Below are positions 2,371 through 62,318 of a stretch of 64,000 nt of DNA, in pieces (position 1 is the stretch's first letter; each line of letters starts with the position of its first letter). The notes below the pieces were generated by a model. It was given only the letters and a program-made list of their open reading frames with translations, did no database searches and had not been told where the DNA came from. Both the position numbers and the translations under genes were made by a program. Source of the stretch: Rhodocollybia butyracea (taxonomy: Eukaryota; Basidiomycota; Agaricomycetes; Agaricales; Omphalotaceae); the NCBI GenBank assembly GCA_015501585.1, contig JADNRY010000133.1:1-64000 (forward strand), given 5' to 3'.

Positions 2371-2527
2371 TTTTTTGAGCATCAAAAAATCTTTATTAAA
2401 AGATTGTGTGCACAAAACTACGAGAAGTAATAACTACTCGACTAGAATTATAAAGTAATCTAAACAATTATCACCACTCTTACTCCGCATCAAAAGCGCC
2501 AAGCAAAATCAACAAAAGTTCGATCAC
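2371..2527 (+). other. gypsy 5' leader
   Basis: AT-rich untranslated stretch between the LTR remnant and the gag ATG. I see no TGG-starting primer-binding site directly after the LTR; a non-canonical priming scheme or decay is possible. Confidence 0.4.
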
Positions 2528-6438: not shown

Positions 6439-6548
6439 AAAAGGAAACCCTTAACGGGAAATTCCGAAGAACGGAAACGCAAGCTAGTAAAGAGTGACTA
6501 GCTGCAGTTTCAACTTCAAAGAAGTCGAAAAATAACAAAATTCCAATA

Positions 6549-9500
6549 GTGGAAATCGAGACGATAGTGGACGAAGAACATCTTCGTTCAGAATTACAAC
6601 ACTCCGCAAGGAGCTTTCCGCACCATTTCCCAGTAATACTGGAGAAATATGATAATTATGTCGAAGTCTTACAAGAAATATCTCGTGAAATGTTTCCCGA
6701 GAGTGTGCGCAAACAAGTTAAGCTTAGAGCTCAACGAGAAAAGGAGAAGGACAATTCTCCTGAATCCGAACCCGAATCAGGGGACAAGGAATTCAAGGCA
6801 GTTCAAGAGGACAGCCCGATAGACTTTTCCTCGCTACAAAAGCAAGGACCATTTACGGATGATCAAATACTGATGATCCACACGATGATAATCGACGAGT
6901 ATAAAGATATACCCGGGGGAGTACCAGAGGTACTCCCACCACTACGAGAAATCAATCATCGAATTAAACTAATCGATGAACAACAGCGATATAATTATTA
7001 TATGCCTAGGTGCCCAGATCACCTAAAAACGCAACTTACTGATAAAATCGGTAAATACACCAGATCAAACTGGTGGATACAGCAACCTGCTCCGCAGGCT
7101 GCACCTATGCTTTGTATTCCAAAGAAAAATGGTACACTATGTACCATTATTGACTATCGTCAACGGAACAATAACACGGTAAAGGATGTCACTCCTTTCC
7201 CTGACCAGGATAACATCCGAACGGATGTAGCCAAACATAAGTATCGATCCAAGATCGATCTTAGTGATGCGTACGAACAAATTCATACTGAAGCAGGTGA
7301 TGTGTGGAAAACAGCATTCGCCTGCATCTTCGGGACATTCGTCAGTAATGTCATGATGATGGGGGATTGTAATGCCCCAGCCACTTTCCAGCAAATGATG
7401 ACATTCATCTTTCGCGACGCTATTGGGAGATATGTACACGCATATCTTGACGATATCTTTGTCTTCAGTGATACACTAGAAGAACATGTTAAGCACATCA
7501 GAGATGTACTTGATCGCCTTAGGAAGCATCATTTCTTCCTTCGAGCTGCTAAATGCGAGCTCTTCTCTGCTACAGTGGACTGTCTTGGACATTCCATAGA
7601 CGATAAAGGTATCCACACGGATACCGACAAGATGGACAGGATTTGCAAATGGCAAACTCCGCGTACGTTCAACGACGTACAACGATTCTTGGGGTTAGTA
7701 CAATATATAGCCCCGTACATGCCAGATGTAGCCCAGTATACTGGACACTGTCTATAATGACAAGGAACAATGTTCCTTTCGTATGGATGCCAGTCCATGA
7801 AACGTGCTTTCAGCACATCAAAAGACTGGCAACCAAGGCTCCAATACTGAAGCCTATAAATACTAATAAAGACGAACCTATATGGGTCATCTGCGATGCG
7901 TCGGTATCCGGCGTCGGATGCATGTACGGTCAAGGACCTACATGGCAACAGTGTAGGCCTGCCGGCTTCATGTCCAGAAAGTTTACTGCAGCGCAGCATA
8001 ACAATAGAGTTTTCAAAATAGAAACTCTAGCTATCCTCGAAGCTCTTCTCAAATGGGAAGATAAACTTCTTGGATATTGAATTCATGTGGTCACTGACCA
8101 CAAAGCGTTAGAATTCTTTCTAATGCAACAAAAATTGTCCAGTAGACAAGCTCGATGGATGGAATACCTATCCAGATTTGATTTTGATATATGTTATATC
8201 AAAGGAATAAACAACAAAGTAGCCGACGCATTATCACGCTACTACGAATCTGACGCGAATCTGGATGATCTTCCACAAGGAAGAGTCGAAGAATTGGCTA
8301 AGGAACACTTAGCCAATATAGAGTTAAGGCGCTCATCACGCCTGCGCGGTAAACAAACGGCGCAACATCCAATAGTCGAACCCGTTGAACGACGAGACGA
8401 AGAGGCTGCAGAAATGCAAGCCAATGCGGAAATACAGGTACCAAAGGTACCAGTAATCCTCCCAAACGAGGAAGACATTAATGTCTTCCAATCAAGGCCT
8501 AGAGGTGTAGAACCTCTAACAATTCTACCCGAAAGGGACAAATTCATCGAAGAAGTCAAGCGGTTATATACCGATGACCCATTGCTCTGCAAGGTACTCA
8601 GTAAACCTGAGCACCATAAACCATTCTCAGTAGAAAATGGTTTAATCTACACGAAAAATCGTGGTGGAGAAATAGTTCTCTGCATTCCGTCTGGCCGAGC
8701 GGCCAATGGAAAGAGCTTGCGAGGCATAATAGCTGAACAAGCTCACGAAGTAATTGGTCACTTCGGAGGACAACGAACCGCCGACTATGTTTGACGATGG
8801 TACTGGTGGCCATGGGTCAATGGCAACATTGAAGAATTCTGCAAGTCTTGTGAGACTTGCCAGCAAATTAAAACAAGCAATTGCAAACCAATAGGTTTGC
8901 TACATTCGCTTCCGATCCCCACGAAACCATGGGAATCAATTGGAATGGACTTCATAGGTCCATTCCCAGAATTGCAAGGATATGATTACCTGTGGGTAGT
9001 CATTTGCAGGATGACTTCACGAGTACACCTTATACCTGTGAAAACAACGATAACTGCATCGCAATTATCATGGATCTTCGTAAAGGAGATCATGAAATTA
9101 CATGGACTACCTAAGTCCATCGTCTCAGACAGAGACTCGAAATTCACGTCACGATGGTGGCGTGAAGTACCCCACTTACTAGGAGCAAAGCTCCTAATGT
9201 CTACATCATTCCACCCCCAAACGGATGGAATAACTGAACGAGTAAATCGTTCAATTGGCCAAATCTTACAGTCAATGGTCAAAGCAGACCAAAAAGACTG
9301 GGTAGAAAAATGCCCAATGATAGAATTTGCATTGAATTCTAGCGTAAACGAGAGCACAGGGTATGCTCCCTTCGAGGTAGATGGAGGGTACATGCCATCC
9401 ATGGTTCGCGAATACCCGAGCGATGCAAAAGTCTCGCCGGGTGTACGCGAATTCGCAGATCATGCCCTGCAGCACCTCTCTGATGCCCACGATAGTCTTA

Positions 9501-10018
9501 TCAAGGCAAGGGTAAAACAAACCTTCCATGCTAATAAGCACAGAAGGGATGAACCCGAAATTAAACTAAATGATTTAGTTTACCTATCGACAAAAAACTT
9601 AAATTTGCCGAGGGGGAGGGCTACCAAGCTCTTACCAAAATTCTTAGGACCGTACCCCATCGTCGAGGTACACCCAGATTCGTCTAACTAGTGAATCGGA
9701 TTGCCAACAGAGTTGGCAAACAATAACTTCCACGCGTCGCTAATACGCAAGCATCATCCTAATGGTGATGCATTATTCCCTATGCGCTCTGTAGCAGAGC
9801 CATACAATTTCGGCGAACCATCCACAGTGGAATGGTTAGTCGATGAAATAATCAGACATCATTGGGATGGCCGAAAAATACTATTCCGTATTAAATGGAA
9901 CCTTGGTGATACCACCACAGAACCATACACAACATGTAAGGAACTAGTCGCTCTAGATAGATATCTAGAACTTCAAGGCGTTGACGACTGGCGACGACTT
10001 CCACGGACGACCGGTTAG
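6549..10018 (+). pseudogene. gypsy Pol: reverse transcriptase, RNase H, integrase, chromodomain (broken)
   Basis: RT lies at 6549-7757: motif A region SKIDLSDAYEQI and catalytic YLDDIFVF near 7441. After a -1-type frameshift around 7742-7755 the frame continues to 10018 with stops at 8078, 8792, 9689 and 9692. RNase H has VICDASVSGVG and, after the stop, VTDHKALEFF. The integrase zinc region shows HEVIGH and CKSCETC at about 8740-8870. The catalytic core shows MDFIGPFP, SIVSDRDSKF and ITERVNRSIG, giving the D, D and E residues. A chromodomain-like segment begins at about 9830 (VEWLVDEIIRHHWDG through YLEL), expected to tether integration to modified histones. The stops at 8078 and 8792 are TGA where CGA (Arg) fits the family pattern. 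The nominal 6549 start is GTG. Confidence 0.92.
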
Positions 10019-27286: not shown

Positions 27287-28233
27287 TTGTGAAGTGATGG
27301 CTTCTTATAGCATGATGTGCATTTGCACAGCTTTGAGATGGATAATATTAGCTGGTGTATTTGGTTCTGTAGCCCTTTCTGCGAATTGTTTGCCACATAC
27401 TGCCTTGTTTTTTTGGTATTTGGAAAATAGGTGTGCTGGGTCCCACCGCAGACACATTTCATGGTCAGGTTTTGGAGGAAGGGATGGTCTGACAGTGTGC
27501 ATGTAGCTCATATACATCAAATTGTCGGCAAGCGTAGAGTGGTAGTGGTCTCCAAGTTGGCATGGTATTGTTGGAGTCTACTCCATATGTACATATCGGG
27601 ACTCAGATACAAAGCTTTGACCATCACTATTCCATATATGCCATGCTTACTTTATACTATACAGCTGGTATTTCATGTAGAGACAGCATATATCACTCCC
27701 TCAGTTGCTTTCTACACAACTGAGGTGAGATCATTTCCATATATTTATCTATCTGCTTACTGACATATGTACAGTTGATCTTACCTTTACAGTGGCGGTG
27801 GGCAAGGCCTGTGAGAAAAACGGCGGGCGCCTAATCGTGGGAAACCAGCCACATGGCGGTTTCCCGTGTTCCCCCTTGTACCACATGAACAAGGTCATAG
27901 ATCACTTAACTCTTGGTAGACAATATTTTCGAAAATGATTTGTCTAGTTGGATATTCAGTTTCGTGAATTTAGAATAGTAGTTAGTGTCAATACATTGCT
28001 ATGTCTGCTGTTTTGGTAGGTCAAGGGGGATTGAACACTTGCAAGGGCCATAACAACGTGAAAATGAACACAAAACAGGTTCGGGTAAGGAATATGAATC
28101 GAGTATCATACTGTGCTTATTCTATAGCGAGGTCTATCTAGGTGAAAGCATACAAAGCATCAAGCACGAGTTGAGCACGAGCATGGTAAAGTGATATATG
28201 TAGCAGAATTTTCCTGCTAGCACTAGAATACAG

Positions 28234-31200
28234 CTAGGCCATTTCCATTCCATCAATATTGTAGTCCATATCATAGTCCATGTTGTCCATATTGTCCATA
28301 TCAACGTCATTATCCATCGAATTTTGCAATCTTTCTATCATCGCTTCCATTGACCCCCGTGGGGCTTGATTCACATCATTTGTCGAGATGCTGGACAGTG
28401 AACCAGCAGTAGGATCCGCGATTAATCTAAACATAGATTAATCCAGAACGAACGGGAAGAGAAATAAAAAGAGAAATAAAAGAACTCACACTCGAGTTGC
28501 AGCTGCAAGGACAGCAGACTGCAAAATTGGCTTGAGACTAACAGACTTCTGTGTGACTTTTGCAAGGACTGGATCGTTCCGAACATTCTTGTAGATGCGG
28601 AACTGGTCCATGAGCTCCTTGACATTCATTTTGACAATCTGGTCACTGTCCAACACAAGTCCAATTGCATCTAAGCGAGCTGTCTCATCGGCTTGTTTCT
28701 GTGTCAGTTTGGCTTGCTTTTCTTGAGCATCTTCTGCGCGCTTCTTTTGTACCTTGAGATACTCATGTTGAAACTTCTTCACAGCTCCACTCGCATCCTG
28801 CTCCCGGGCTTGTCGCATAACGTGAAGCTGGTCCTCGAATGTAGTGTGCTTTACAATGAATTTCTCTGTCCCATTACGAGTTGCACGAGCCTGAGCTGCA
28901 AACATGAAAGAGTTGCTGCTGGGGTTAGAGTGAAGATATACCCGGGTTGAACCTAGAGGTCCTTCATTGGCATTGTTTGTCATGGGAATACGGCCGAGAC
29001 ATGCACGCATTTCTGGAGTAAGTGAAGCAATGCAAACAGGATCAGTCGGATCATCAACATACTCGGGAGTGAAAAGTGTCCACCCATATGCCTCGCCACG
29101 AAACATTGCAGAGATCATGAGGTTAAGATGGGGAAGTTCCGATGATAGTGTCTTCAGTGTTGGAACAATAGTCTGATCAATGAACGGTTTTCCATCTAAA
29201 GTCAATTCGCTCTGTGGAGTCTCTGGATCGAAGAGTTTTTCTGGATGAAGTGCGAGATTTTCACAGAAAGCAGGAATCCGCTGGTGAAGTGCAACCATTT
29301 TGGGGCTGAGAGCATCAACAAACTTTTGACCATTAGGAGCAGATCGAATTAGACCCATGTATGGCCATGATAACACAAGACCATCAACGGCCATAGCAGC
29401 AAGCTCACAGAGTGTTTTGATGCACTGGAGGCCTTTGAGAGCATTTCTCTCAAGATGATTGGGACCCATCTTGGTCTTTCCGTCGCAAATTTCCTCAATG
29501 AGATCCTGGTAGTCATCACAAAGGACTATGAGTTCTGCGGCGGCATAGGAATGAGAGTTATAGCGTGTGTTGGAAACATCGGGGAAACATTTAGATGCCT
29601 CGGACGCAGGCATATCATACATGTCTTGCTTCCAAGCTTGCATAAACATTCGATGTTTATCCTGGTACCCGGTCTCATGGTTCTTATGACGAAGGAGTGC
29701 TCCAGCAAGTTCAGTAAGTTTAACCCCGCCACGTGAACAGGATGCGACACATTTTGCGAGGGCTTCGGGGTTGGTATTATTCTTGGCTATCTGTATTGCA
29801 ACCTCTGTGGCTTTGTTGGCCAAATCACATGGACCTTCGAGTTTTTCCCGTTTCCATGTTTCCTGCATCTCAACAACACCATAGCAAAAGGAGTTTAAAC
29901 ACTTGTGTGCAGAAGAAAAGACAGAGAAGACTTGCTTCATTATCTGGGAGTAATTCAAACACTTCCTTTCCAATGTGCTGTTCCAGGAGATCGAGCGAGA
30001 TTTGGCTGCGCTGAGATTCAGAGCTACTCAGAGTGAGTATGTAAAACTAACCAGATAAAAATTAAAGTACTTACAGTTCATCAATAGCCTTGAACGGTTT
30101 CCCAGCAGCTTTGACAATGTCGGCGTCAGTAATTTTTATCACCTCACTCATGATATCAGTGGCAGACATTAATTTCATCTTCTCCATTGCAAGGTCGCGG
30201 TTCAAGATATGATCCTTCTTCTCCTTCGTAAGTCGAAAGTCCTTCTTGCCGTCAGCAGCATGGTCCTTGTGCTGATAGACCTGTTTCTGAAAGTAATCGT
30301 CAGGTTCCATGGTCTGGCCATCACGTTTTGCCAGTGGACTTTCAGAGTACGCATTTGCGATCTTCATGCCTAGCTCAATTGATCCCTCAAATTGTCGTTG
30401 AGCAGTATGATCAAGAGCAGGGGCAACTTCAGCGAATCGCGTCGCTGTCTTCCAAGTTGAAGGATCCGAATCATCAACCCCAGGTTCATAGGTGGGTGCA
30501 GAGAGAGTTATAGAGCGAGACTCTTGAGTAATACCACTAACTGTTGTCCCATCACTGCCTTCTCCAAAAGCCAAGGTGTTTGTGATCTCTCTTCCAAGCT
30601 GTATCAGTCCATAGATGCCACCTTCCTTGACACATCTTGCCCCAGTATGACAACTCATTACTCGCTTGACAAGAATACCAAATGCCTCGCCACAAGATCG
30701 AATTGCAAGATCGACATTCCGGCATCCCGTGCATTTAAGCTGACGATAGAGTTTACGGGCAGAGGCTGTAAAGATGCCTTTGTTGGTAGGTTTCCATACA
30801 GCGACTGTCTCTAACTTCATACGAGTGGATGCAAGAGAGCTTTTTGCACGTTGTACCTGTTTCCGAAGAGCATAGATTTCTTTTTGAAGGGAAGAAACTT
30901 GTTGACAAAGAGTGGAGGTAAGAGCGGTCGAGGAAGAAAGTGATTCCTTGAGTTCAACTACTTTGAGTTGGAGCTGGGTGTTTTTGGGCTCAGCAAGATC
31001 AATAATGACATGCAATCCCAGTATTTCCTTCTCGTACTTCTTCCTTTCCCTTCTGGCTTTTCTTTGAAGTGCAATCTTCTCCTTCTTTGACTCGACTTTA
31101 CAACTGTGTAATTCCTTCAAAGTTCTACCATGGGCAAAGCAATGGCGGGCTATATCGGATACAAGAGTGGAGTTTTCGGCCTTCAGATCATCCAGTGAAG

Positions 31201-31501
31201 CCAGAAGAGTGAGATTTCGTTCAGAAAGTGAGAGTATTTTTGATTCCCGGGTCTGTGTATCCAATACTGCCTTTGAGACCTTTTCCTTCAGTTCAGCTAT
31301 CTCTAGAACCTTCTCGTCAAGCACAGATTTCAGCAATCCAATATCGGCCCTTTTCTTTGTCTTAGAACGCGTCGATGCGGACGGACTAGTGGCTTCAAAA
31401 AGAACGGGAGGAGTTGTATTTTCGTCAGGTTCATTTTTAGATCTAGAAGCATGTAGAGCCTTCAGTTGAGCAATTTTGGCTGCAGATTTCCGGGCAGGCA
31501 T
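28234..31501 (-). CDS. putative transposase of the 7-bp-TSD element, copy 1 (three exons)
   Basis: Exon 1 runs 31501-30075, exon 2 from 30010 (acceptor CAG) or 30023 (acceptor TAG) to 28490, and exon 3 28426-28234; donors are GTAAGT and GTGAGT. With the CAG acceptor the exons join into one open frame of 1046 codons. Residues ~60-260 are strongly coiled-coil (Glu/Lys/Leu-rich); a zinc-like CTGCRNVDLAIRSCGEAFG follows, then EGSDGTTVSGITQESRSITL, LDHTAQRQFEG, NTRYNSHSYAAAELI, SWPYMGL and MTNNANEGPLGS, and an acidic Asp/Met-rich tail. The Asp of SDGTT, the Asp of LDHT and the Glu of NANEG are candidate RNase H-fold catalytic residues (inference). Compared with copy 2, 14 bp are missing near 29912, removing the VGCGAH part of a GCGAHKxLN motif; the CAG acceptor compensates the frame but garbles ~32 residues. 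Confidence 0.7.
28427..28489 (-). other. intron 2 of the transposase gene
   Basis: GTGAGTTC donor at 28489, TTTAG acceptor ending at 28427; 63 bp. The same intron is at 61614-61676 in copy 2. Confidence 0.7.
30011..30074 (-). other. intron 1 of the transposase gene, alternative acceptors
   Basis: Donor GTAAGT at 30074. Acceptor TAG ending at 30024 gives 51 bp; acceptor CAG ending at 30011 gives 64 bp. Only the second keeps copy 1 open through exon 2. Confidence 0.6.
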
Positions 31502-32148
31502 GGTATAGGGCGTAATAAAGGGTATAAGAGCAAGATAGTAAGCTAGAACGCGGTCCAGCGACGCGAATCGATGCATCGTAGTTGGTGAAAGGCAACAGCC
31601 TAGCGTGGGAATAAGTAATCACGCTCATCTTGCTTTGTCAAATTTTCGGTTTCTTAATTCAGCTGTATATCATGTTCATCACAGAAGTAAGTAGGCAAAA
31701 AGTTGACGAACATCTTGATGATTCCTTATTTCAAGCTGATTCTTCTCCGAAAAAATTCGGTACATAATTAGACACAGTTTTGCTTGCATTCAAATCGACG
31801 TATTTGTCAAAACCAGTTTACTAAAGATTTCTGCTTGAAATAAAGAGCGATACATATTTATTATGATTTTAGATATACCTTACAGAATATTCTCGCGAAG
31901 GGACTGCGAGATTAACTTTAGGACAGCAAGAGCTGTAGTGAGAACGTGGTTTAGCGGTGGGAAAATCCTAAGCGCCCGCCGGTTTTTTTCATAATGAATG
32001 CCCACCGCCATTTACAGGTATATAATATAGTTGCTTTCTACACAAGTGAGTTGATCTTAAGTACTTTAACAGATTATGAGACTTGTGCTCTAACAAAGCA
32101 AATATTGAGAAAACACATTATCAAAAGTATATTACCCACCACAAAAAA

Positions 32149-33069
32149 ATGTCAGGAAATCTACTGAATATACCGAGACTCCCAGATGAGAAACAGCTTG
32201 TTGGCAAAGAAAACTGGAGACCTTTTAAAAGGGAAATCTTATTTGCTATTCAATCGAAAGGCTTGGCAGGCTACCTCGATGGGACTATCACTAGACCAAC
32301 CCCTATGGTTACCTACCTGGGCCCAATCTACATATCACAGCAGACACCACTGTTCAGTCCAGTCCCACAATATGAGGAGTGGGAAGCCCGTGATAGGCTA
32401 GTTGCCGGAGCCATTGTATGAAACGCGGTTGACCCTACAGGACTGGGAATCGACAAGACAAAGAGAGCATCTGAAATCTGGAAAAATCTCATTAAACAAT
32501 TCAAAAAGAAAGATGAGCAGCACATTCACCTTGCTGATACTGCGCTTCGCTCCCAGAGATTCAACCTGTCCAAACAGACCATGGAGGACCACAAAAAGAA
32601 AATGCAAAACCTCCTGAAAAAGGTACATGACCTCGGAGGAAGTATCCCTGACCCACAGTTCTGTCTCATCCTCATCTCATCCATGCCCAGCAATTGGAAG
32701 CGAGACATGTGCACAGTCTCAGGAACATCAAGCGCAGATGCATTCATGTACCTTTGTACCCTCTGGCTCCAGAAGGAAGAGGATAGACTGGCAGAGGAAC
32801 AAGAGAACAAGAAAGTCAAGGCCCGTACCAACAGCGCACCAGAGACAGACCTGCATTCACTTGCCACATGGCTAGGAAATGCTGGGCAAAGGGTGGTGGC
32901 ATGGAGGGACAAGCCAAAACAGGGACAAGCGAACAGAGGAAAAATGGGGCCAAGTGTAAAAGTTGTTACAACAGAGGACACCAAACCCAATGCTAGCATG
33001 CCCATGGCAACCTATTATGTCCTGTCAGTAAATGCCATGGACTCCTTGAGCCATATCATCCCATTCTGA
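32149..33069 (+). pseudogene. copia Gag (UBN2-like), one internal stop
   Basis: Starts at ATG 32149 (MSGNLLNIPRLPDEKQL, GKENWRPFKREI). The frame is open except for TGA at 32419-32421, after which NAVDPTGLGIDKTKRASEIW continues: the classical copia Gag/UBN2 region. The zinc knuckle is in the neighbouring frame near 32945-32985 (CKSCYNRGHQTQC), so a one-base frameshift lies just before it; the printed end of the frame at 33069 is an artefact of that. Gag forms the virus-like particle of the element. Confidence 0.8.
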
Positions 33070-33107
33070 AGGCTACAGGTCAGCGAAAGGAGGAAAGCCA
33101 GGATGTA

Positions 33108-33480
33108 CATCAGGAAAAGCCGTTTTTGCCTAGGTGACCCCAGAGTGGCCTAAAGCAAACTAGGTGACCTATGAATCCTATGGCATCCTATGAATTTGGG
33201 CTCATCCCTTGCCAGTCAAGGCTCTTGAGGATTCCCTAGGCAAGCCTAGGTTTGCCCAGGTTTGCCCAGGTGCTCCTGGGGAACACCTGGGGAACACCTG
33301 GGCAAACCTGGGCAAACCTAGGCTTGCCCTGGGTTTGCCTAGGATACCCTAGGGAATCCTCAAGAGCCTTGATTGGCAAGGGACGAGCCCAAATTCCTAG
33401 GATGCCATAGGATTCATAGGTCACCTAGTTTGCTTTAGGCCACTCTGGGGTCACCTAGGCAAAAACGGCTTTTCCTGATG
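33108..33480. mobile_element. palindromic MITE, 373 bp
   Basis: Nearly the whole element is an inverted repeat: CATCAGGAAAAGCCGTTTTT at one end and its reverse complement at the other, arms of ~170 bp meeting near 33295 around CCTGGGGAACACC. The flanks are TA on both sides (GATGTA can also be read on both sides). It sits between copia Gag and protease; without it and one flank copy the copia reading frame continues as SQDVDKDVL. No coding capacity. Confidence 0.85.
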
Positions 33481-33482
33481 TA

Positions 33483-34456
33483 GATAAAGACGTACTTAGC
33501 TATGCGACTGTTGACCTCAAAGACTGTGCCATATGCAAGGGAACAACATCCCTATACTTGCCTCCTGCTCCCGTAACTCAGACTTTTCTTGACTCGGGCA
33601 CATCAGAGCACTGTTGGGTGCATAAATCAGACTTCATCGAATATACTGAGGTACATGGCCAAGGTGGTAATAGTGCCATATCTGGCGACACGGGGAAATT
33701 CCAGATACTTGGAGTAGGGACGGTACAATTTGTCATGCGTGTAGATGGAGACGAAAGAATAGTGAAGCTCCAGGGCGCAAAGCACACGCCATTGTTTGCC
33801 CACAACCTCATATCACTGTCAACCCTCGATTGTAAAAGAATGAGAGGCACCTGGGGAGACGGCGCAATGATTGTGAAGTCCCCCACAGGGGAGGGAGTGA
33901 TACATGGGTATGGCAAAGCAAAGATGTATGAGGTGGAGATACTGGAGTCAGGGAAAACAGATGTCAATTGCTTGTGCAAGAGAGATAGGCCAACCAATAT
34001 ACTCACCTGGCACAGGAGACTAGGGCACGTAGCACTGATCCAATGGATACTACGTGTGGCCAACCGGAACCTCGTCAATGGACTGAATATCACCAAAAGC
34101 GAGGCAACTGGTATGTGCGAGGATTGCTTATATGGAACAGCAAAGAGACAACCATACTCATGCATGAGAGTGAAGTACTCCAGTGTGTGCATGTAGACCT
34201 ATTCAGACCTGCGAGAATGCAGACACGTGGAGTTTGCAGCTACCTCTTACTCTGCACAGACGGAAAATCCTCCTTCCGAGTACTGTTCTACCTGAATAAT
34301 AAATGCAAAGAGATGGGCGTGAAATGCTTACACGAGTACTGCACAATGGCGGAGAAGCAGACGGGGAAGAAACTGAGGACAATACACATAGATGGCGGCA
34401 GAGAGTTGAACAATGGGGCCATAGACAAGTACTGGGCGGAGAATGGCATACTCCAT
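33483..34456 (+). pseudogene. copia protease, pre-integrase zinc region and integrase start (truncated)
   Basis: Protease: TFLDSGTSEHCWVHKSDFIE with D-S-G at about 33592. GAG-pre-integrase region: NILTWHRRLGHVALI and CEDCLYGTAKRQPY (H..C..C). After a shift to another frame near 34130, the integrase core starts with VHVDLFRPARMQTRG (first catalytic Asp) and IHIDGGRELNNGAIDKYWAENGI (second Asp). The element breaks off in this motif at 34456 where the GTTGACTTGAG repeat begins. RT and RNase H are not in the window. Confidence 0.83.
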
Positions 34457-34700
34457 CAGGAAAAGTCTAAAATCCTTGAGTTGACTTGAGTTGACTTGAG
34501 TATTTATCCTGACTTCAGGTTGACTTGAGCTAACCTGAGACTTGAGTTAACTTGAGTACATATGCCAACTTCAGGTTGACTTGAGTTAACCTGAGTTGGC
34601 ATGAGTATAAAGCCTATTCAAGCCTCAACTTCAGGTTGACTTGAGTTAACTGTGACTGAGTTAGCTTGAGTTAACCTGAGTATAAGGCCCCAACTTATAA
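34457..34700. repeat. GTTGACTTGAGTTAAC repeat block (copy 2)
   Basis: Starts GGAAAAGTCTAAAAT, as copy 1 does at 20739, and continues with the same TTGACTTGAGTTAAC words. It interrupts the copia integrase at a clean boundary. The other end is not defined. Confidence 0.7.
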
Positions 34701-35214: not shown

Positions 35215-35880
35215 CATACCATGCTTGTATAGGCATTGTACATCCATACAGAGCATGTACAGGCGATGTGCACACGTGCAGAGCTTGTACAAGCGTCGTG
35301 CACGCATACAAAGCATGTACAAGCTTTGTGCGTGCACACAACACTTGTACAAGCTCTGTACGCGTGTACAATGCTTGTATGAGCTCTGCATGCGTGTACA
35401 ACGCTTGTACCAGCTCTGAACGCGTGCAAGATGCTTGTACAGGCTCTACACGCGTGCACGACGCTTTTACAAGTGCTGTACACGCGTACGACGCTTGTAC
35501 GAGCTCTACACGCGTGCACGACGCTCGTACAAGCACCGTACACGTGTACAACGCTTGTACCAGCTCTGTACACGTGTAAGACGCCTGTACGAGCTCTGAA
35601 CGCGTGCACGACGCTTTTACGAGCGCTGTACACGTGTACGACGCTTGTTCAAGCTCTATACGCGTGCACCTGCTCTGCATGTTCATACAAGCTTTTTACA
35701 AGCTCTGCACGCGTGCACGGCGCTTGTTCAACCTCTGTACGCCTGTACAAGCTTTGTGTGCGCGCACGACACTTACACGAGCTCTGTACACGTGTACGAC
35801 GCTTGTACGAGCTCTACACGCGTGCACGACGCTCATACAAGCTCTCTACGCGTGTACAATGCTTGTATGTCCATCGCTTG
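35215..35880. repeat. 30-bp minisatellite, about 22 units, CpG-rich
   Basis: The unit approximates AGCTCTGTACACGTGTACGA plus CGCTTGTACG. Units are most alike in the centre (35390-35640) and decay at both edges. Each unit carries self-complementary words (GTACACGTGTAC, ACGCGT, GAGCTC). As the unit length is a multiple of three and contains no stop, open frames run through on both strands (a 288-codon frame at 34820-35686 minus, 162 codons at 35431-35919 plus); I regard these as consequences of the repeat. Confidence 0.92.
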
Positions 35881-39423: not shown

Positions 39424-42400
39424 CTACAGGTTGGAGCGCTGTGCAGGGTTTTCATAATACCATGATAAACTTTGTTTTGCATAATTATTTGTCGTCAATG
39501 CAAGGGCCTCTGTTCTGTCCAACTCTTGCCTTAGCTCCTGGGATATATGGTTCTTGATTTTATTCAAGTTAAATGGCCTCAAAATGCACAATCCTTTCAA
39601 AGAACGTACTCGTGATAGCATGACATAGGCACTTTGGATTGAACGACAGCTTGCCAGATCTATACATACAACATTAAGAGAGCGCCCCTGTGAGTTATGT
39701 GATGTGAATGCAAATGCTGGAATCAAAGGTAACTGGTGACGTGTTGCTGAATAGATTCTCTCAGAGTTGGGAAGACGGAATTTAAATGATTGGGAGGCTA
39801 GAGACAAAAGAACTCGATGAGGATGCTCTGCATCACTAGGTGTCCCTTTGAAACCTGGAAAATCTACTGTTGCGGACACTGCATATTTCTGGTTGGGTTG
39901 GCGCTCTTCATATTTCACAGAAACTAAAGTTCCAAGTGAACCTTTGGATAAACCAAGCTCAGTTGCAATATTTTCTGTACAAAAGACTGGCATACCCTGT
40001 ATGAGTGGAAGTTTACCTGCTAAATCTTGGGCTTGTTTTACAGGGACTCTCCATGCAGCTTCAGCAGCCACCCCCTTCAGTTCGCGTTGATTTTTACCAC
40101 GCCCCTGTATGTCTGTGGAGTGAAAGAATTGAAGGGTTGACCACTTGCATCTGCAAAAGCCTTTGCACATTTAAAGTTATGTGCATCCCGAGCAGCATTT
40201 GTATAGGTTATGAGTGGGCAAGCATTATCGGGGTTGGTGATCCATCTTCTAATATCTATTAGTGACTTAGTTTCTTCCGAGCAATTTGGGTTGGACAGAA
40301 CATAAAAATCCAGCAACTGCTTGTCTTGCCTTGTACAAGTACCTGTTCAGAGGCGACTAAGCAAGTCAATAAGAATATTATCCCCTTCTGACGCATTATC
40401 TCTGTAAGAACAACCACATGATTTATTTGATGCCAAGCTTGGATCCCTCTAACTTTATACTGAGTCGTTTGATTTAGTGCATTTAAATTATTAGAATTAT
40501 AACAACGAACAAGTTCATGATCAAATAACGGTGATGCGCCAGGAGGCGGGAGCTGAGCTGGATCACCACAGGTAACAATATTGAGTCTCCCAAAAGGGTG
40601 TTCTGTAATACCTTTCGCTATAGAGCAATACTCCGACAGCAAGCTCATGTCACTTGGATCCATAAAATATATCTCATCTACCACTAACGTTCTTACTGGA
40701 CCAAAACGCCGCTCTAGATCATTCCGGACCTTCTGTCCAGAATTAGTATCAGCTTTCATGTTTGCCCTTTTAACACGCAGAGCAGCTTCTGCATGTATTG
40801 TACAGCCGCCGATGTCACTTGCAACAACACCAGTTGGAGCCGTTAAACGAAATTCTTCTGTGCAATTTAGCTCCTGATGAAACTCTGTCCAAGCTTCAAA
40901 GATTCGTGATTTTCCTGTACCACCCGGCCCTGTTACAAGAAGGCGTAATGGTGGAAGCTGGGAATCACTGTCAATCTGTTTACCCACTGCATCGGCAAGA
41001 AGCAAGAAAGCCAAAATTTGACGCTCATTGAGACTATGTATTTTTACTAGTGCCATGGCAAGCTTCTGGTATGGTTTCAAAGAGTCCCAATGTTCTTCAG
41101 AGTTGGAATCACTTGGATGAAGCTTTAAGTACAGTGCCTTTGCTCGTTCAATTTCACTATTGATATTTGATGAAAATGGCAGTGGAACATGTAGAGAGGG
41201 TTCACGATGATGTTGAGTGATGTTCTTCTGAGCAGCTGCCTTCAAGCGGCTATTTATTATGTCTTCTTTTTGCTTAGCAATAGAAATTCGGGAAGCCATT
41301 GCTGCCTCTTTATCTTGAAAAGATGCAAGACTTGATGAATTAAGATCATTTGGTAGTATGGACACTTGAGTAACATTATAAAAACCCTGTGAGCTTGTAT
41401 TTTCAACAATGGAAGCTACGTCACCAGGCAGCTCATCTATTACTTCATTATCAAGTGAATTATAATCAACTTCTGTGTCCATTGCACTCTCCCATTCAGG
41501 ATCATATATGTCAGAGGCATCGTCAAAGGCATTAGTAGAACCTGGTAAGACACGACATAGTTCGGCTAGTCTTTTTCTTCTAATTGCAGCATAATCAAAC
41601 TTTGCATCTTTACTCTCATACTGAAGCTGCATATTTTCCATGATTTTAATATGAGTGTTTCCAGATGTAGAGGATTTCCAGCTGCTAAAAGCAGTGTCCC
41701 AAAGTTGGTTTGGAGCTTTCAGTGGTGAAGCACGGTCATCAGACCAAGGCTTGAACAAAGTAAGCATGGCTACTGCATACTTACTTTGGTCCTCTTCTTT
41801 ATCATTGCGGGGAATTGAGTAACCAACAAGAACTGGGATGCGGGGGTTTTCAGTCACAGTAACTTGCTTTAAACAGTGGGTTGCATATTGTGGATGGCCA
41901 GGTTGAAACTGTAAGTAAGTCTTTATTTGAGTTTCAGTTCGAGGAAGTTTATCTTTGGCAAAATTACACATTATATCCCAAGTGCACCACATCAATAATT
42001 CTGGTGGTCGGAAGAAAAAATCATTGAATAGAGAATTTCCTGTTGAAGAATGCTGATTTTTATCATTACTGACTTTAGGATCCATTAAGAAGATTAAAGA
42101 GTCGTCTTCATCGGGGCTAAGCTGCTGTTGTTCCGGCAGTCCTTCACAGACATTAACATCAGTAATGTTTTCATCAATGGATGTATAGTTATCATCAAAG
42201 ATATCTCGTGCAATTTCACGAAGCATACCCGACCAGTAAAATCTTGGGAATGCACGATTAGTGTAATGCGAAGGCTCCCCTAGAAGTGCAGTTGCCACTT
42301 GCTGACTGGATAACTCACGTTTTGCAATTAGCTTATTGGCAGTCTTGAGAAGTAGTTGTCGGCTTCTTTCTCCAGTATCAATCACACCATCAATGTCCAT

Positions 42401-45376
42401 TGGGGGATTTTCTGCAAGTATCTTGATGGAAGCACATAATGCCAAGAAAACTAATGCTGTATCTAGTGTGAATTTCACTGTGTAGTTGCCTACATATTGG
42501 AACATTGCCATTGCCACAGTACCTGATCCAATGGGTTTAGCATCACTGTTACATCGCTGAGATATTGTAATGAGAGGGTTATGTCCATTCACAAAACCAT
42601 TGTTACATTTGAGAACAAGGGCATCATCCTCATCAAAATGTGTTTTCTCTGACATCTCACGTGGAAGCTGAAAACGGCAATCTTTATTATCATCACGGAG
42701 AGATCTGATATTTTTTGGCAGATGCTTATAGCAAGTGTCACCATGTTCATGAATCATGGCACTACTTTCAAGGACATCCCGTAGGTCTTGAGCAAAACTT
42801 TCCTGGAAAGTGGGCTCTGTTGGATCTTGGGAGCGGCTCATAACAGGTTGACGGATATACATACCTTGTTCTCGAATATATTGATGTGTATCCTCAGGGA
42901 TATTTTGTGAAAATACATCATCATACCAAGCAGTTAACTTTTCCACAAAATTGGGACTAGATTTGCATCTTTGTTTGATCTCCATTGGATTCATACCCTT
43001 CTGGAGCCATACAAGCAGATGTATATGGAGTGTACCTCTACCTTGAGCTTCAACAACACCATAATATACAGAAATTTCACCAAAGATTCCCTTTCCATTT
43101 TTATGTTTAGTTCCAAGAAGAATGTGAAGAAGAGTCCTAACAGAGTGATGAAAAAATTTGGCAGCAGCCACTGGATTTTGTGCCACAAAAGAAGACCTTT
43201 CCAAGTTTTCAGCACCAGGCTTCAAGTCATGAAAGAACTTATCCAAGTCAATTTCTCGGCCAGCTTTAACTTGAGTAATAGGATTATTGGTATCTGTTGG
43301 ATTTAAGGTCAAGAATATGTGTGGCAGAGCATCAGTGTGTACAATTGAATATAATTCTTCACGCATGTGTTGAATTTCAGCCATTGAGCCAGGTACATCT
43401 TCTGCAATGTAGTTGACATGCTGAATAAGCTTTGTGGCAGCTTGCTCCCCTTCAGTCTCTGCACGAGCAAATGGATTTCTTTTGAGTTTGTCAGTGAAAG
43501 ATTCAATGGTTGAATAAGAGGTATCACGACATTGTAGAATATTGTTAACAACAAACATGAAAGACAAATGAGTCTGGAACCGACGATTTGGGCCACTTTG
43601 CAGTAGGTGAGAAACATGAGTCCTCATAGGAAGTTCCTTGAAACCTATAGAATCATTAGAATGTATATTGTCATTTTCCATCATTCCGACCCCATATGGA
43701 AAAAGTGTGGGCCAGAGATGGCCATATGTATCAGGACTGTGCCTTGTGGGCAAGGGAGTAGAACCTGAAGGATATTTGATAAATGAGGTTTGACCAGCTT
43801 TAAGTCTCTGCAGAGCATTAAGCTTACGCATCTTGTAGGTAGAATCTGCATGATCCGCATCAATAACTGTAGAAGAGGGCATACCCAGTGGAGATACATT
43901 CTGGTTGAACTGTTCAGAATTAGCCTGTTGAGTATATGAAGCACCCTCAGAATTGGTATTGACACGTATAATGGACTGAATAGGGATTGGAATACCAGCT
44001 TCAGGGTAATGAGCAGCAGCCTCCTCAACCAAGTCAATGTTGAGGTCAGAGTATAATGAATTATGTTGGATTAGCCATTTAAGAGCTTCAATGATTCGAG
44101 AACGGCGGACAAGTAATGGAGACCGTGATAGCATTTCAATTGTTACTTCAATATCTGGGGACCCAATGAAAATAACACAAACTTCATCATGGAGCTGAGA
44201 CAATGGTGGAGGCAGACATGTACCGAGAGGACTAGGATCTTGAGGGAATATACATACATTTCCACGTGAAGCAAACTGGCCTGTAGGCCCAAGTTCAAGC
44301 TTAAACATACATTTTGTAGTTCGTGCGCGCGCAATGCACTGCTCTTCAAGAAATGTCAAACCTTGTAAGGCAGATGGAAGTGAACCAGTCCAAGTACCAT
44401 TAGCATAACTGCGAACAGGAATACCGTGAAATGAACGGTGTTTTCGTTGGCCATCATCGCCTCTTGTGTATTTAACTTCTTTTTTGCAATAAAAACATAA
44501 GCGATAACAATCATTTTCGATCGTCTCTGGGCAAAAGCATTGAATCTGAGGTTGATTTAATTTTTTACGAATCTCTTGAGTTGCTGTCTCCAACAATGAT
44601 ATATCAAGCTCGGCGCAAGGAATCAAAAAGCAAGTACTACTTGGCTCATATCTTCCACAGAATGAACAATCATAACGATGAACAGACTCGTTACTACCAG
44701 CATCATGAGCTTCTTTGAGAATGTTAACCTTCTCATCCCATGTGAGGATGTTGAGCCATTCCGTATCATCCTGGAGACAATCAATATGCAGGGGAGGAGG
44801 AATAGAACCTTGGTTAACAGTCATGTTTTTCTTCTTGCGTGAAGTATCCAACTGTATTTGTTTACGCTTTTGGGCAGTAGAATGCGGAGATTCATAGTTA
44901 CAAAGGTTCAAAGATTTAGCTGAAGTAATAAAATCATGGTCAGAGATATCATCATACTCTACAGAGGCCTGAAGAGCATGGGCACGGCGGATTAAGCATA
45001 CATTTGTGCAAGAATGCACAGAGAAGTCACTGCGCAGCTCGGCAGTGGTCTTGTACTTATTGTCAGGGTGACGGGATGAAAGAGCAACATGTAAAGTAGC
45101 AAGCTTTCGAAGGTCATTGGTACTGAAGGACTTGGATTGAATAAGATACTTGACTACAAGTGGCTTAAGTTCCACAGGAATGTAAACGAAGTCGGAACGA
45201 AGATATGTAAATGAAATAGTAGTATTCGGAGTTGGTGTAGATGTTGTGGAAGTGAGCAGGTTCAGATCGTGTTGAATGCTGTTCTCATTATCGTTATCAT
45301 TATCGTTATCGTTATCGTTATCATTATCGTTATCATTATCATTAGCGCTAGCGGTTTCAAAGCCATTTTCATACAC
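39424..45376 (-). pseudogene. Helitron Rep/Pif1-helicase protein, frameshifted near its C-terminus
   Basis: A 1705-codon minus frame (45376-40259) followed by two shifted segments to 39424. Order: Asn-Asp repeat; Cys/His-rich region (CSFCGRY, CFCPETIENDC, CFYCKKEV); Helitron-like N-terminal and Rep domain with ALPHIFLTLNP and the HUH motif in EAQGRGTLHIHLLVWL near 43040; then Pif1 helicase with Walker A TGPGGTGKS near 40925, Walker B LVVDEIYFMD near 40680, CGDPAQLPPPGA and, in the last piece, FTSHNSQGRSLNVVCIDL and MLSRVRSLKGLCILRPF. Lesions: a one-base shift near 40390, TGA at 40349-40347 (CGA expected), another shift near 40130. The first codon is GTG; a stop lies eight codons upstream, so the true start may be in an upstream exon. 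Would catalyse rolling-circle transposition. Confidence 0.92.
45284..45348. repeat. coding microsatellite (AACGAT)n
   Basis: About ten hexamers of ATTATCGTT-type sequence encode an alternating Asn-Asp run in the Helitron protein (residues ~11-30). Confidence 0.85.
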
Positions 45377-45399
45377 GAAAGAAGAGTCCTAGCAAAAGA

Positions 45400-50870: not shown

Positions 50871-51305
50871 TAGAGATGTCCATGAGTCCAAGTCACACAC
50901 AGGTACTTGCAAGTAGGGTACTTGCGAGTCCAAGTACTTGTTTCCCACGAGTAGCAACAAGTCACAAGTATTGCCTTTTGGTCCACAAGTACTTGGACCA
51001 TAAGTCAAGGACCATTATTGTGTGCCCAGGTAATGTTATTAGGTGTCATTCTGGATATTAAATACCCTTGTGATGCTGCTTGCATGAAATAAATGTTCTT
51101 TACATGGTATTATAACAATAGAATACTATGGAATAGCTGAATCATCTTTGTAAGTACCAACTACTTGCAGGTACTTGTGAGTATAAGTCGTGGGAATACT
51201 TGTGAGTCCAAGTACTTGTTTCCCACAAGTCACAACAGGTCACAAGTATTGCCTTTTGGTCCACAAGTCCAAGTATTACTTGACTTGGACTTGTGGACTT
51301 CTCTA
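50871..51305. mobile_element. hAT-like MITE family X, 435 bp, inside the LINE
   Basis: Starts TAGAGATGTCCATGAGTCCA and ends ACTTGTGGACTTCTCTA. Flanked by CTGCAGGA (50863-50870) and TTGCAGGA (51306-51313), an 8-bp duplication with one transition. Interior rich in CAAGTACTTG words. Removing it restores the LINE frame (RQLQDGILHCL). Confidence 0.82.
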
Positions 51306-52937
51306 TTGCAGGATGGCATCTTACATTGCCTTGTTCAATGCTCGTCTGACTCAGGAGCGTTTTGGAGGCTATACAAACGCATTCACTACCCAGGGAATGC
51401 TCCCACCTTGGTGTCCTTGTCAAGCCTTGTTGAATGTTTTGTACCAAGGATGAACCCTCCACAGAATATTCCTCAGTCCTTACAGGACCGTCTCATGCAG
51501 GAATGTGAGCTATGTGAAAGGACTAAACAGTCAAAACCATCCTTCTTTCCAGCACTGAATGAGAGGCTTATGGTTTATGATATTGAACAGGCCAAGGCTC
51601 ACCTCACTCAATCCAATCCATCATGGGCTACAGGCATTGACGGCTCATCCTACTCATGGATACTAGATCTAGACAACGACATCCTATGTGATCTCCTTAA
51701 TGCTTGCGTGGATGTGGGCGAGGTACCAACAGCATGGCTAACCATGCTTATTAGAGCAGTTCAAAAGCAAGGCTTGCATGACTTCACCAATCCAAACAAA
51801 TACCATGCTGTGGGCCTGGAGAGCTGTATTTTAAAGTTTCTGACTCTCATTATCCACATGAAACTTTCGGATGCGGCAGAAGCTGTAGGCATTATTCCTC
51901 CTTCCCAGAATGGTTTCCGTGAACACCACCGGACCAATAACAATGTCTTCATTCTACAAGCTTTGGTTGAGGATACAAGGTCGAGAGGAGAGACACTGTA
52001 TGTAGCTTTTGTCAACATCTCAAATGCTTTCCTATCTACCAACCAACACCGCCTGTGGAACAAGCTGTATGATTATGGATTGATTGGTCGTTACTTTGAC
52101 TGGCTCAAAATCTTGTACAAGCAAATGTTGTACAGCAATGGTGAACTCTCAGACAGCTTCCATACTCTCTGCAGTGTTCTGATGGGTGACCCTGCATCTC
52201 CAACTCTTTGGAACTTGTTCCTATCCTCTCTAGAGCTTGTACTGGACCCAGACAATGTTGATCTCTGTGGTATCACAATTTTTCATTTGGAACATGCAGA
52301 TGACATTGCCATCATCTCCAGAACAGCCCATGGCCTACAAAGACACCTACACAAGCTCGGATCCTGGTGTAGCAATAACTTCCTTAAACTTGACACAAAG
52401 AAATCAGTCATCATGATTTTTGGGCCACTCACTAATCCACTTCCTACTCTCTCCCTTGCAAATTCTCCTCTTCAAGTCAAAGAATCTTGGCCCTACGTGG
52501 GTGTATGGCTACAGTCTTCATTGCATGACATTTTCGCAACACATTACAAGAAAAAGATTGAAGCAGCTGTTGGATCAGCGTGAAATGTATTTGGGTGTGA
52601 ATGCCTAGTCGGCAGATCTCAGATTCCCCCTCACATTGCTTGCCTCCTTTACGTCACCCTCATTGATTGCCACCTCACTCATGCTTGTGATGTTGCCATG
52701 GATGTGGATCCATTGTTGATGGATTCTTTATATCAAATCCAGATTCTCTGCCTTTGCCGCATCCTTGGTCTCCCTCACAACTCAACAATCTCTCCTCTCT
52801 TTACTGAACTAGATCTTTTACCTATCTGTACCTGTCGGCTTCAGCTCAGTCTCAAATTCCTTTCCTATCTTATTTCATCACCAGATTCTAGCCTCGTTAC
52901 CCTCGCGTTACAGGCAAACAGTAATCTATGTTCTAAT

Positions 52938-57910: not shown

Positions 57911-58163
57911 CTCAGGTCGATGGGATTACCAGCGTTATTTTTTACCATTCTCATCAACAGGTCTGTTGCTTTAACGTGAATCTGAATCCTGATGGCCTTC
58001 AGTTGGCTCCAATCTCGAAATCTCTAAGTATCACATTACACATTAACAGTGGAAACGACTCCCTGGTTCTGGTAAAACAGCGACTGGAACCTTTGACCGT
58101 ATCTATAACCCAACAACAAATTACTTGTAAGCCTGGTCTACATCTACTGGAAACCCGGGATAG

Positions 58164-61100
58164 TGGCAGTGGGCATTCGTTATGAAAAAACCGGCGGGCG
58201 CTTAGGATTTTCCCACCGCTAAACCACATTCTCACTACAGCTCTTGCTGTCCTAAAGTTAATCTTGCGGTCCCTTTGCAAGAATATTCTGTAAGGTATAT
58301 CTAAAATCATAATAAATATGTATTGCTCTTTATTTCAAGCAGAAATCTTTAGTAAACTGGTTTTGACAAATACGTCGATTTGAATGCAAGCAAAACTGTG
58401 TCTAATTATGTACTGAATTTTTTCGGAGAAGAATCAGCTTGAAATAAGGAATCATCAAGACGTTCGTCGACTTTTTGCCTACTTACTTCTGTGATGAACA
58501 TAATATACAGCTGAATTAAGAAACCGAAAATTTGACAAAGCAAGATGAGCGTGATTACTTATTCCCACGCTAGGCTGTTGCCTTTCACCAACTACAACGC
58601 GTCGATTCGCGTCGCTGGACCGCGTTCTAGCTTAATATCTTGCTCTTATACCCTTCATTACGCCCTATACCATGCCTGCCCGGAAATCTGCAGCCAAAAT
58701 TGCTCAACTGAAGGCTCTACATGCTTCTAGATCTAAAATGAACCTGACAAAAATACAACTCCTCCCGTTCTTTTTGAAGCCACTAGTCCGTCCGCATCGA
58801 CGTGTTCTAAGACAAAGAAAAGGGCCGATATTGGATTGCTGAAATCTGTGCTTGACGAGAAGGTTCTAGAGATAGCTGAACTGAAGGAAAAGGTCTCAAA
58901 GGCAGTATTGGATACACAGACCCGGGAATCAAAAATACTCTCACTTTCTGAACAAAATCTCACTCTTCTGGCTTCACTGGATGATCTGAAGGCCGAAAAC
59001 TCCACTCTCGTATCCGATATAGCCTGCCATCGCTTTGCCTGTGGTAGAACTTTGAAGGAATTACACAGTTGTAAAGTCGAGTCAAAGAAGGAGAAGATTG
59101 CACTTCAAAGAAAAGCCAGAAGGGAAAGGAAGAAGTACGAGAAGGAAATACTGGGATTGCATGTCATTATTGATCTCGCTGAGCCCAAAAACACCCAGCT
59201 CCAACTCGAAGTAGTTGAACTCAAGGAATCACTTTCTTCCTCAACCGCTCTTACCTCCACTCTTTGTCAACAAGTTTCTTCCCTTCAAAAAGAAATCTAT
59301 GCTCTTCAGAAACAGGTACAACGTGCAAAAAGCTCTCTTGCATCCACTCGTATGAAGTTAGAGACAGTCGCTGTATGGAAACCTACCAACAAAGGCATCT
59401 TTACAGCCTCTGCCCGTAAACTCTATTGTCAGCTTAAACGCGCAGGATGCCGGAATGTCGATCTTGCGATTTGATCTTGTGGTGAGGCATTTGGTATTCT
59501 TGTCAAGCGAGTAATGAGTCGTCATACTGGGGCAAGATGTGTCAAGGAAGGTGGCATCTATGGACTGATACAGCTTGGAAGAGAGATCACAAACACCTTG
59601 GCTTTTGGAGAAGGCAGTGATGGGACAACAGTTAGTGGTATTACTCAAGAGTCTCGCTCTATAACTCTCTCTGCACCCACCTATGAACCTGGGGTTGATG
59701 ATTCGGATCCTTCAACTTGGAAGACAGCGACGCAATTCGCTGAAGTTGCCCCTGCTCTTGATCATACTGCTCAACGACAATTTGAGGGATCAATTGAGCT
59801 AGGCATGAAGATCGCAAATGCGTACTCTGAAAGTCCACTGGCAAAACATGATGGCCAGACCATGGAACCTGACGATTACTTTCGGAAACAGGTCTATCAG
59901 CACAAGGACCATGCTGCTGACGGCAAGAAGGACTTTCGACTTACAAAGGAGAAGAAGGATCATATCTTGAACCGCGACCTTGCAATGGAGAAGATGAAAT
60001 TAATGTCTGCCACTGATATCATGAGTGAGGTGATAAAAATTACTGACGCCGACATTGTCAAAGCTGCTGGGAAACCGTTCAAGGCTATTGATGAGCTGTA
60101 AGTACTTTAATTTTTATCTGGTTAGTTTTACATACTCACTCTGAGTAGCTCTGAATCTCAGGCAGCCAAATCTCGCTCGATCTCCTGGAACAGCGCATTG
60201 GAAAGGAAACGTTTGAATTACTCCCAGATAATGAAGCAAGTCTTCTCTGTCTTTTCTTCTTCGTTGGATGCGGTGCACACAAGTGTTTAAACTCCTTTCG
60301 CTATGGTGTTGTTGAGATGCAGGAAACATGGAAACGGGAAAAACTCGAAGGTCCATGTGATTTGGCCAACAAATCCACAGAGGTTGCAATACAGATAGCC
60401 AAGAATAATACCAACCCTGAAGCCCTCGCAAAATGTGTCGCATCCTGTTCATGTGGCGGGGTTAAACTTACTGAACTCGCTGGAGCACTCCTTTGTCATA
60501 AGAACCATGAGACCAGGTACCAGGATAAACAGAACACACGCTATAACTCTCATTCCTATGCCGCCGCAGAACTCATAGTCTTTCGTGATGACTACCAGGA
60601 TCTCATTGAGGAAATTTGCGACGGAAAGACCAAGATGGGTCCCAATCATCTCGAGGGAAATGCTCTCAAAGGCCTCCAGTGCATCAAAACACTCTGTGAG
60701 CTTGCTGCTATGGCCGTTGATGGTCTTGTGTTATCATGGCCATACATGGGTCTAATTCAATCTGCTCCTAATGGTCAAAAGTTTGTTGATGCTCTCAGCC
60801 CCGAAATGGTTGCACTTCACCAGCGGATTCCTGCTTTCTGTGAAAATCTCGCACTTCATCCAGAAAAACTCTTCAATCCAGAGACTCCACAGAGCGAATT
60901 GACTTTAGATGGAAAACCGTTCATTGATCAGACTATTGTTCCAACACTGAAGACACTATCATCGGAACTTCCCCATCTTAACCTCATGATCTCTGCAATG
61001 TTTTGTGGCGAGGCATATGGGTGGAGACTTTTCACTCCCGAGTATGTTGATGATCCGACTGATCCTGTTTGCATTGCTTCACTTACTCCAGAAATGCGTG

Positions 61101-62311
61101 CACGTCTCGGCCATATTCCCATGACAAATGACGCCAATGAAGGACCTCTAGGTTCAACCCGGGTATATCTTCGCTCTAACCCCAGCAGCAACTCTTTCAT
61201 GTTTGCAGCTCAGGCTCGTGCAACTCGTAATGGGACAGAGAATTCATTGTAAAGCACACTACATTCGAGGACCAGCTTCACGTTATGCGACAAGCCCGGG
61301 AGCAGGATGCGAGTGGAGCTGTGAAGAAGTTTCAACATGAGTATCTCAAGGTACAAAAGAAGCGCGCAGAAGATGCTCGAGAAAAGCAAGCCAAACTGAC
61401 ACAGAAACGAGCCGACGAGACAGCTCGCTTAGATGCAATTGGACTTGTGTTGGACAGTGACCAGATTGTCAAAATGAATGTCAAGGAGCTCATGGACCAG
61501 TTCCGCATCTACAAGAATGTTCGGAACGATCCACTCCTCGCAAAAGTCACACAGAAGTCTGTTAGTCTCAAGCCAATTTTGCAGTCTGCTGTCCTTGCAG
61601 CTGCAACTCGAGTGTGAGTTCTTTTATTTCTCTTTTTATTTCTCTTCCCGTTCGTTCTGGATTAATCTATGTTTAGATTAATCGCAGATCCTACTGCTGG
61701 TTCTCTGTCCAGCATCTCGACAAATGATGTGAATCAAGCCCCACGGGGGTCAATGGAAGCAATGATAGAAAGATTGCAAAATTCGATGGATAATGACGTT
61801 GATATGGACAATATGGACAACATGATGGACTATGATATGGACTATGATATTGATGGAATGGAAATGGCCTAGCTGTATTCTAGTGCTAGCAGGAAAATTC
61901 TGCTACATATATCACTTTACCATGCTCGTGCTCAACTCGTGCTTGATGCTTTGTATGCTTTCACCTAGATAGACCTCGCTATAGGATAAGCACAGTATGA
62001 TACTCAATTCATATTCCTTACCCGAACCTGTTTTGTGTTCATTTTCACGTTGTTATGGCCCTTGCAAGTGTTCAATCCCCCTTGACCTACCAAAACAGCA
62101 GACATAGCAATGTATTGACACTAACTACTATTCTAAATTCACGAAACTGAATATCCAACTAGACAAATCATTTTCGAAAATATTGTCTACCAAGAGTTAA
62201 GTGATCTATGACCTCGTTCATGTGGTACGAGGGGAACACGGGAAACCGCCATGTGGCTGGTTTCCCACGATTAGCGCCCGCCGTTTTTCTCACAGGCCTT
62301 GCCCACCGCCA
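58164..62311 (+). mobile_element. TIR DNA transposon with 7-bp TSD, copy 2 (4148 bp)
   Basis: Starts TGGCAGTGGGCATTCGTTAT and ends GCCTTGCCCACCGCCA. Perfect 7-bp direct repeats GGGATAG at 58157-58163 and 62312-62318. Inverted relative to copy 1 (27793-32010) and ~97 percent similar. Size difference is explained mainly by an 81-bp deletion here and a 14-bp deletion in copy 1. Confidence 0.94.
58672..61872 (+). pseudogene. putative transposase of the 7-bp-TSD element, copy 2 (disabled)
   Basis: Same three-exon layout as copy 1: ATG 58672, intron 1 60098-60148, intron 2 61614-61676, stop at 61870-61872. Lesions against copy 1: one A lost near 58735, TGA at 59472-59474 where copy 1 has CGA, one C lost near 60161, a 27-codon in-frame deletion near 60530, and one A lost near 61240. 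It keeps the 14 bp missing in copy 1 and so shows the motif FFFVGCGAHKCLNSF near 60255-60300. Later motifs NTRYNSHSYAAAELI, SWPYMGL and MTNDANEGPLGS agree with copy 1. I recall this protein type as highly amplified in mushroom genomes; no characterised function known to me. Confidence 0.75.
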
Positions 62312-62318
62312 GGGATAG

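Follow-up and report, generated by a model that had tools for sequence, protein, structure and literature searches.

The window analysed here, a stretch of 64,000 nucleotides of Rhodocollybia butyracea (contig JADNRY010000133.1, positions 1 to 64,000), holds two dead copies of what we consider, with a probability of roughly 85%, to be a cut-and-paste DNA transposon of the DDE (aspartate-aspartate-glutamate) type, its transposase being hAT-like in its working and forming a sequence lineage separate from the families with which it was compared. This is a real DNA transposon family, as seen from matching ends, exact 7-base-pair (bp) target duplications, empty sites, a conserved protein encoded within the ends and signs of purifying selection. 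A cut-and-paste DDE mechanism is very likely, and the family is hAT-like in fold and unplaced by sequence.

An original prediction, made from the letters of the window, had proposed two copies between perfect 7-bp duplications, the second one inverted, and both coordinates and flanks confirm this (Table 1). The terminal sequences that it gave, TGGCGGTGGGCA and TGCCCACCGCCA, are exactly those of copy 1, whereas one end of copy 2 carries a single mismatch (TGGCAGTGGGCA). In copy 1 the inverted repeat is perfect over 12 bp and continues imperfectly up to 41-42 bp, and a GC-rich block, CGGCGGGCGC, is common to both ends at about positions 29-39. The two copies lie in opposite orientation and agree at 4049 of 4131 aligned bases (98.0% identity). 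As a chance control, sequence shuffled in 9-bp blocks was searched in stretches of 1400 and 1300 bases over 3000 trials; a 7-bp duplication together with an inverted repeat of at least 11 of 14 positions arose in 20 of these, a count that does not yet ask for similarity between the termini. The assembly yields six insertions whose ends are related, far beyond this chance level.

The insertions outside the window come from a search of the whole assembly (95.6 megabases, 1381 contigs). At the DNA level it holds three more near-identical copies, on contigs C537, C716 and C2 (pairwise identity 97.6-99.9%), of which the first occupies the site of copy 1 and is therefore an allele or duplicate of it, while the other two have exact 7-bp duplications of their own (ATAATAG for C716, CTACAAA for C2). 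C390, flanked by exact copies of ATGTCAA, represents a second family with about 71% identity; C944 and C800 belong to it too and share the site of C390. In C944 (3316-14709; loci L021 and L022) the element of the second family extends across some 11.4 kb, compared with 4.0 kb in C390, and about 7 kb of other DNA, with frames of gag-like appearance, seems to have been inserted into it. A remote relative at C402:5259-8964 encodes protein P0112, which shares 26% identity with the Gymnopus homologue P0001 over the aligned catalytic part and 24% over the full alignment; the gene of another R. butyracea protein, P0163, matches on C650. The C402 element starts with TGGGTGTGAGCA, finishes in the complement of TGGGTGTGGGCA and is flanked by CCCTGTG twice. 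A copy of about 770 bp on C223 (474450-475219, locus L077), too short for the gene, resembles the C402 element at both ends (71-73%) and is probably an old non-autonomous derivative; no target duplication was found around it.

Evidence for insertion also comes from empty sites, for which the flanks of the six sites were joined at one 7-bp copy and searched against the assembly; this gave 105 candidate places, of which 40 were scored. The site of copy 1 is uninterrupted on C619, C432, C750 and C473 (97-98%) and at no fewer than 14 more places at 82-88% (at least 18 in total, 82-98%), besides at least four shorter matches; copy 1 therefore lies in a dispersed repeat. The empty site of C716 was found on C787 (99% over 190 bases across the junction, with a one-base difference immediately after the 7 bp) and that of the C402 element at C402:4784-5006 (95%). 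Each of these six named places, when aligned, has a single, intact copy of the 7 bp. This demonstrates that copy 1 and C716 were inserted with a duplication of exactly 7 bp; the C402 site likewise confirms an insertion but fits either 5 or 7 bp. Empty counterparts of copy 2, C2 and C390 were not found among the places scored. The independence of the insertions, which had been claimed for the two window copies from their different duplications, is thus borne out and strengthened by the further copies and three empty sites, and the same evidence, with the pairing of the ends, supports the proposed tie between this protein family and mobility.

All five near-identical copies show decay of the transposase gene. 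The exon 2 borders were inferred from GT/AG sites and the reading frame in C716, whose predicted exons give 1055 codons when joined, with two in-frame stops, both TGA. Copy 1 has lost 14 nucleotides at the CxxH motif, C2 has lost the NEG motif to an internal deletion, and C537 has several frame breaks. Accordingly, of the motifs listed in the original prediction, GCGAHKxLN stands in copy 2 only, and the 1046-residue product offered there is a composite, since copy 2 is broken as well: besides a deletion of its own it contains frame breaks and an internal TGA. When four copies are compared, transitions make up 138 of the 146 two-state differences, and 115 of these transitions fall in CpG, the pattern expected if putative cytosine methylation drives the decay. 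The protein itself is strongly constrained: between the near-identical and the second family, non-synonymous divergence (dN) is 0.16-0.17 against a synonymous divergence (dS) of 3.4-3.9 in two stretches (204 and 160 codons), which by this measure shows purifying selection.

The protein family is widespread. With residues 240-880 as query and 7996 candidates scored, 120 matches were obtained at an expectation value (E) of 1e-3 or below, and every named one belongs by genus to what we take to be the Agaricomycetes; a second search with a profile of 28 members gave 45. Each of these searches, over about 8000 candidates, returned matches from this transposase family only. Conservation across 68 aligned homologues (P0001 numbering) singles out D249 of SDGTT (66), D345 (65) and D349 (66) of DHAAD, C446 (68) and H449 (66) of CxxH, and E762 (67). 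The aspartate of another noted motif, LDHT, is unlikely to be catalytic because its column holds D in 38 homologues but N in 25, and we infer that the second catalytic residue is D345 or D349. For the RNase H fold and its D, D and E positions, which the original prediction had suggested looking for, secondary structure, fold matches and conservation give support, the assigned residue roles being putative. Hermes is the best fold match, the alignment covering both the core and the helical insertion ahead of the catalytic E, so that the description of the transposase as uncharacterised holds for the sequence family and less so for its mechanism.

We propose that the helical N-terminal region would recognise the element ends, in the near family perhaps via the GC-rich subterminal block, while the coiled coil may aid multimerisation. 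In the next step an RNase H-like catalytic core (D249, D345 or D349, E762 and C446xxH449) would excise the element and attach it to the target strands at points 7 bp from each other; the duplication would arise when the staggered gaps are repaired. Copies would afterwards decay mainly via CpG transitions, as expected of putatively methylated repeats.

Several observations weigh against this account. Both the C402 and the C390 insertions also permit a 5-bp duplication, with one more base per end in the former and with ends two bases further in for the latter; for C402 we prefer 7 bp because the match is longer and agrees with the other sites. The full form of the GC-rich block is missing from the right end of C390 and from both ends of the C402 element. 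A 7-bp duplication with paired ends was found at six of the 12 independent insertions or loci tested (a set that leaves out C19, C1038, C244 and C576), and no such end pair at C1094, C425, C1291, C169, C223 and C494, which are decayed or covered only in part. An intact copy is absent among the five near-identical ones, the catalytic residues were placed from conservation and secondary structure, the ends were characterised in one species only, and movement of the element was not observed.

Whether the family should simply be filed in hAT, as a fast-evolving branch comparable to hAT7 with its 7-bp duplications, is the question on which the fold and the sequence pull apart. Besides the match to Hermes, the CxxH-x-x-LN motif resembles the CLAHIINL motif seen in this genome's hAT frames, and although the standard hAT duplication is 8 bp, variants with 5, 6 and 7 bp exist (hAT5, hAT6 and hAT7). 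Yet a Pfam scan of 30 members (10 at E up to 1, 20 others up to 0.1) gave no match above cut-off and found no transposase domain, including hATC or any other hAT domain, even though hAT dimerisation domains are easily detected in this genome (46 matches). Profile A3 did not retrieve Hermes from the PDB even at E 10. The same 30 members gave no match to a BED zinc finger, several of the 20 in A3 being without the N-terminus; this finger may be lost in hATs. Termini of the hAT type follow the consensus YARNG, whereas those found here, TGGCG and TGGGT, have G at the second position. Since the sequence and domain tests turned up no hAT homology, we do not file the family as hAT and regard such a placement as unlikely. 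A relationship to Kyakuja (KDZ) would be much more improbable still: duplication length and host range are alike, KDZ is plentiful in this genome (144 matched pieces) and hhalign locates one and the same weak stretch in the two comparisons, and neither the KDZ domain PF18758 in the 30 members scanned nor profile similarity in a profile comparison was found.

We give about even chances to the broader proposition that the family constitutes an undescribed eukaryotic DDE superfamily across Agaricomycetes, with TGG..TGNGCA ends, 7-bp duplications and a Hermes-like fold, split from hAT beyond sequence recognition; many mushroom 'hypothetical proteins' would then be its transposases, some perhaps domesticated. 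Repbase counts 24 DNA transposon superfamilies in its cited version and defines a superfamily by transposases that fail to converge on any other superfamily when searched iteratively at E < 0.005. It is possible, if rather doubtful, that the family is already catalogued there or in a subscription paper under another name and that nothing here is new; the public proteins are, however, labelled hypothetical, uncharacterised or unnamed (with Myosin-10 as the sole exception), and the open-access full-text literature, a scope that excludes Repbase and most subscription journals, yielded no recognised description. That some other transposase moves the element, with this protein as a mere passenger or host gene product, seems hardly credible: no second transposase-like gene was seen within the elements, the protein has a transposase fold, and even the remote copy on C402 is enclosed by ends of this type.

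Further repeats and mobile elements were noted in the window. Copy 1 (27600-34500 area) adjoins Copia-type gag and pol frames (32422-34196). Elsewhere lie a Helitron (39424-45388, minus strand) with DUF6570, Helitron_like_N and PIF1 helicase domains within 40262-45388; a retroelement of the long terminal repeat type (2459-9691, plus strand) whose RVT_1 reverse transcriptase and rve integrase frames contain frame breaks; an RVT_1 reverse transcriptase frame of LINE-like (long interspersed nuclear element) appearance (51141-52583, plus strand); and, at 35245-35867, an array with a unit of 30 bp (units of 60, 79 and 90 bp occur too) and long open frames on both strands.

Table 1. Features of the two transposon copies in the window.
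Feature	Position	Strand	Remarks
Copy 1 of transposon	27793..32010	-	4218 bp; transposase gene on minus strand
Left target site duplication, copy 1	27786..27792	.	TTTACAG; single at four empty sites
Right target site duplication, copy 1	32011..32017	.	TTTACAG
Left terminal inverted repeat, copy 1	27793..27833	+	TGGCGGTGGGCA; 12 bp perfect, imperfect to 41 bp; holds subterminal block CGGCGGGCGC
Right terminal inverted repeat, copy 1	31969..32010	-	
Exon 1, copy 1	30075..31501	-	start codon, coiled coil, helical N-terminal domain, putative first and second catalytic D
Exon 2, copy 1	28490..30023	-	CxxH region to C-terminal part; out of frame by 14-nucleotide deletion near 29913
Predicted last exon, copy 1	28234..28426	-	acidic C-terminal tail; stop codon 28234-28236; inferred border
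SDGTT motif, copy 1	30542..30556	-	putative first catalytic D, in strand 1
DHAADGKK motif, copy 1	30242..30265	-	putative second catalytic D, either D of DHAAD
TNNANEG motif, copy 1	28960..28980	-	putative catalytic E
Copy 2 of transposon	58164..62311	+	4148 bp; orientation opposite to copy 1; broken gene on plus strand
Left target site duplication, copy 2	58157..58163	.	GGGATAG
Right target site duplication, copy 2	62312..62318	.	GGGATAG
SDGTT motif, copy 2	59616..59630	+	
DHAADGKK motif, copy 2	59907..59930	+	
GCGAH (CxxH) motif, copy 2	60266..60280	+	kept in copy 2
TNDANEG motif, copy 2	61124..61144	+	putative catalytic E

An important consequence of these findings is that a function can be assigned to many unnamed mushroom proteins, with end sequences and a duplication length supplied for annotating them as transposons, and that the hAT group gains a fold-level relative missed by sequence searches. 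If the proposed superfamily is real, the branching of eukaryotic DDE transposases gains one more deep lineage.

The original prediction could not assign a 7-bp duplication to a standard superfamily, but the length is not unique, being found in Kyakuja, hAT7 and Galileo (7 bp) and in Dada (6-7 bp). Kyakuja, common in mushrooms, shares the 7-bp duplications and the Agaricomycete hosts; it differs in its CA..TG termini, which lack the inverted repeats present here, and in its protein family, PF18758, the predicted layout of which is another one. Galileo, of the P superfamily, likewise combines 7-bp duplications and inverted repeats with a CxxH-class DDE enzyme, but its duplications have the consensus GTAGTAC, whereas the six sites here have none by eye, and the 30 members gave no Pfam match to P-element transposase domains. 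Dada has a C/DxxH-class DDE transposase; Dada-U6 and Dada-U1, however, are without terminal inverted repeats, unlike copy 1, and the insertion targets of Dada are small RNA genes (small nuclear and transfer RNA), while at the two window sites no such target was found (no Rfam match in the window; copy 1 in its dispersed repeat). Hermes, finally, is the closest in structure, at 9-10% identity in structural alignments and with no detectable sequence homology between hAT and this family, which combines a Hermes-like core and helical insertion with TGG termini and a long N-terminal coiled coil.
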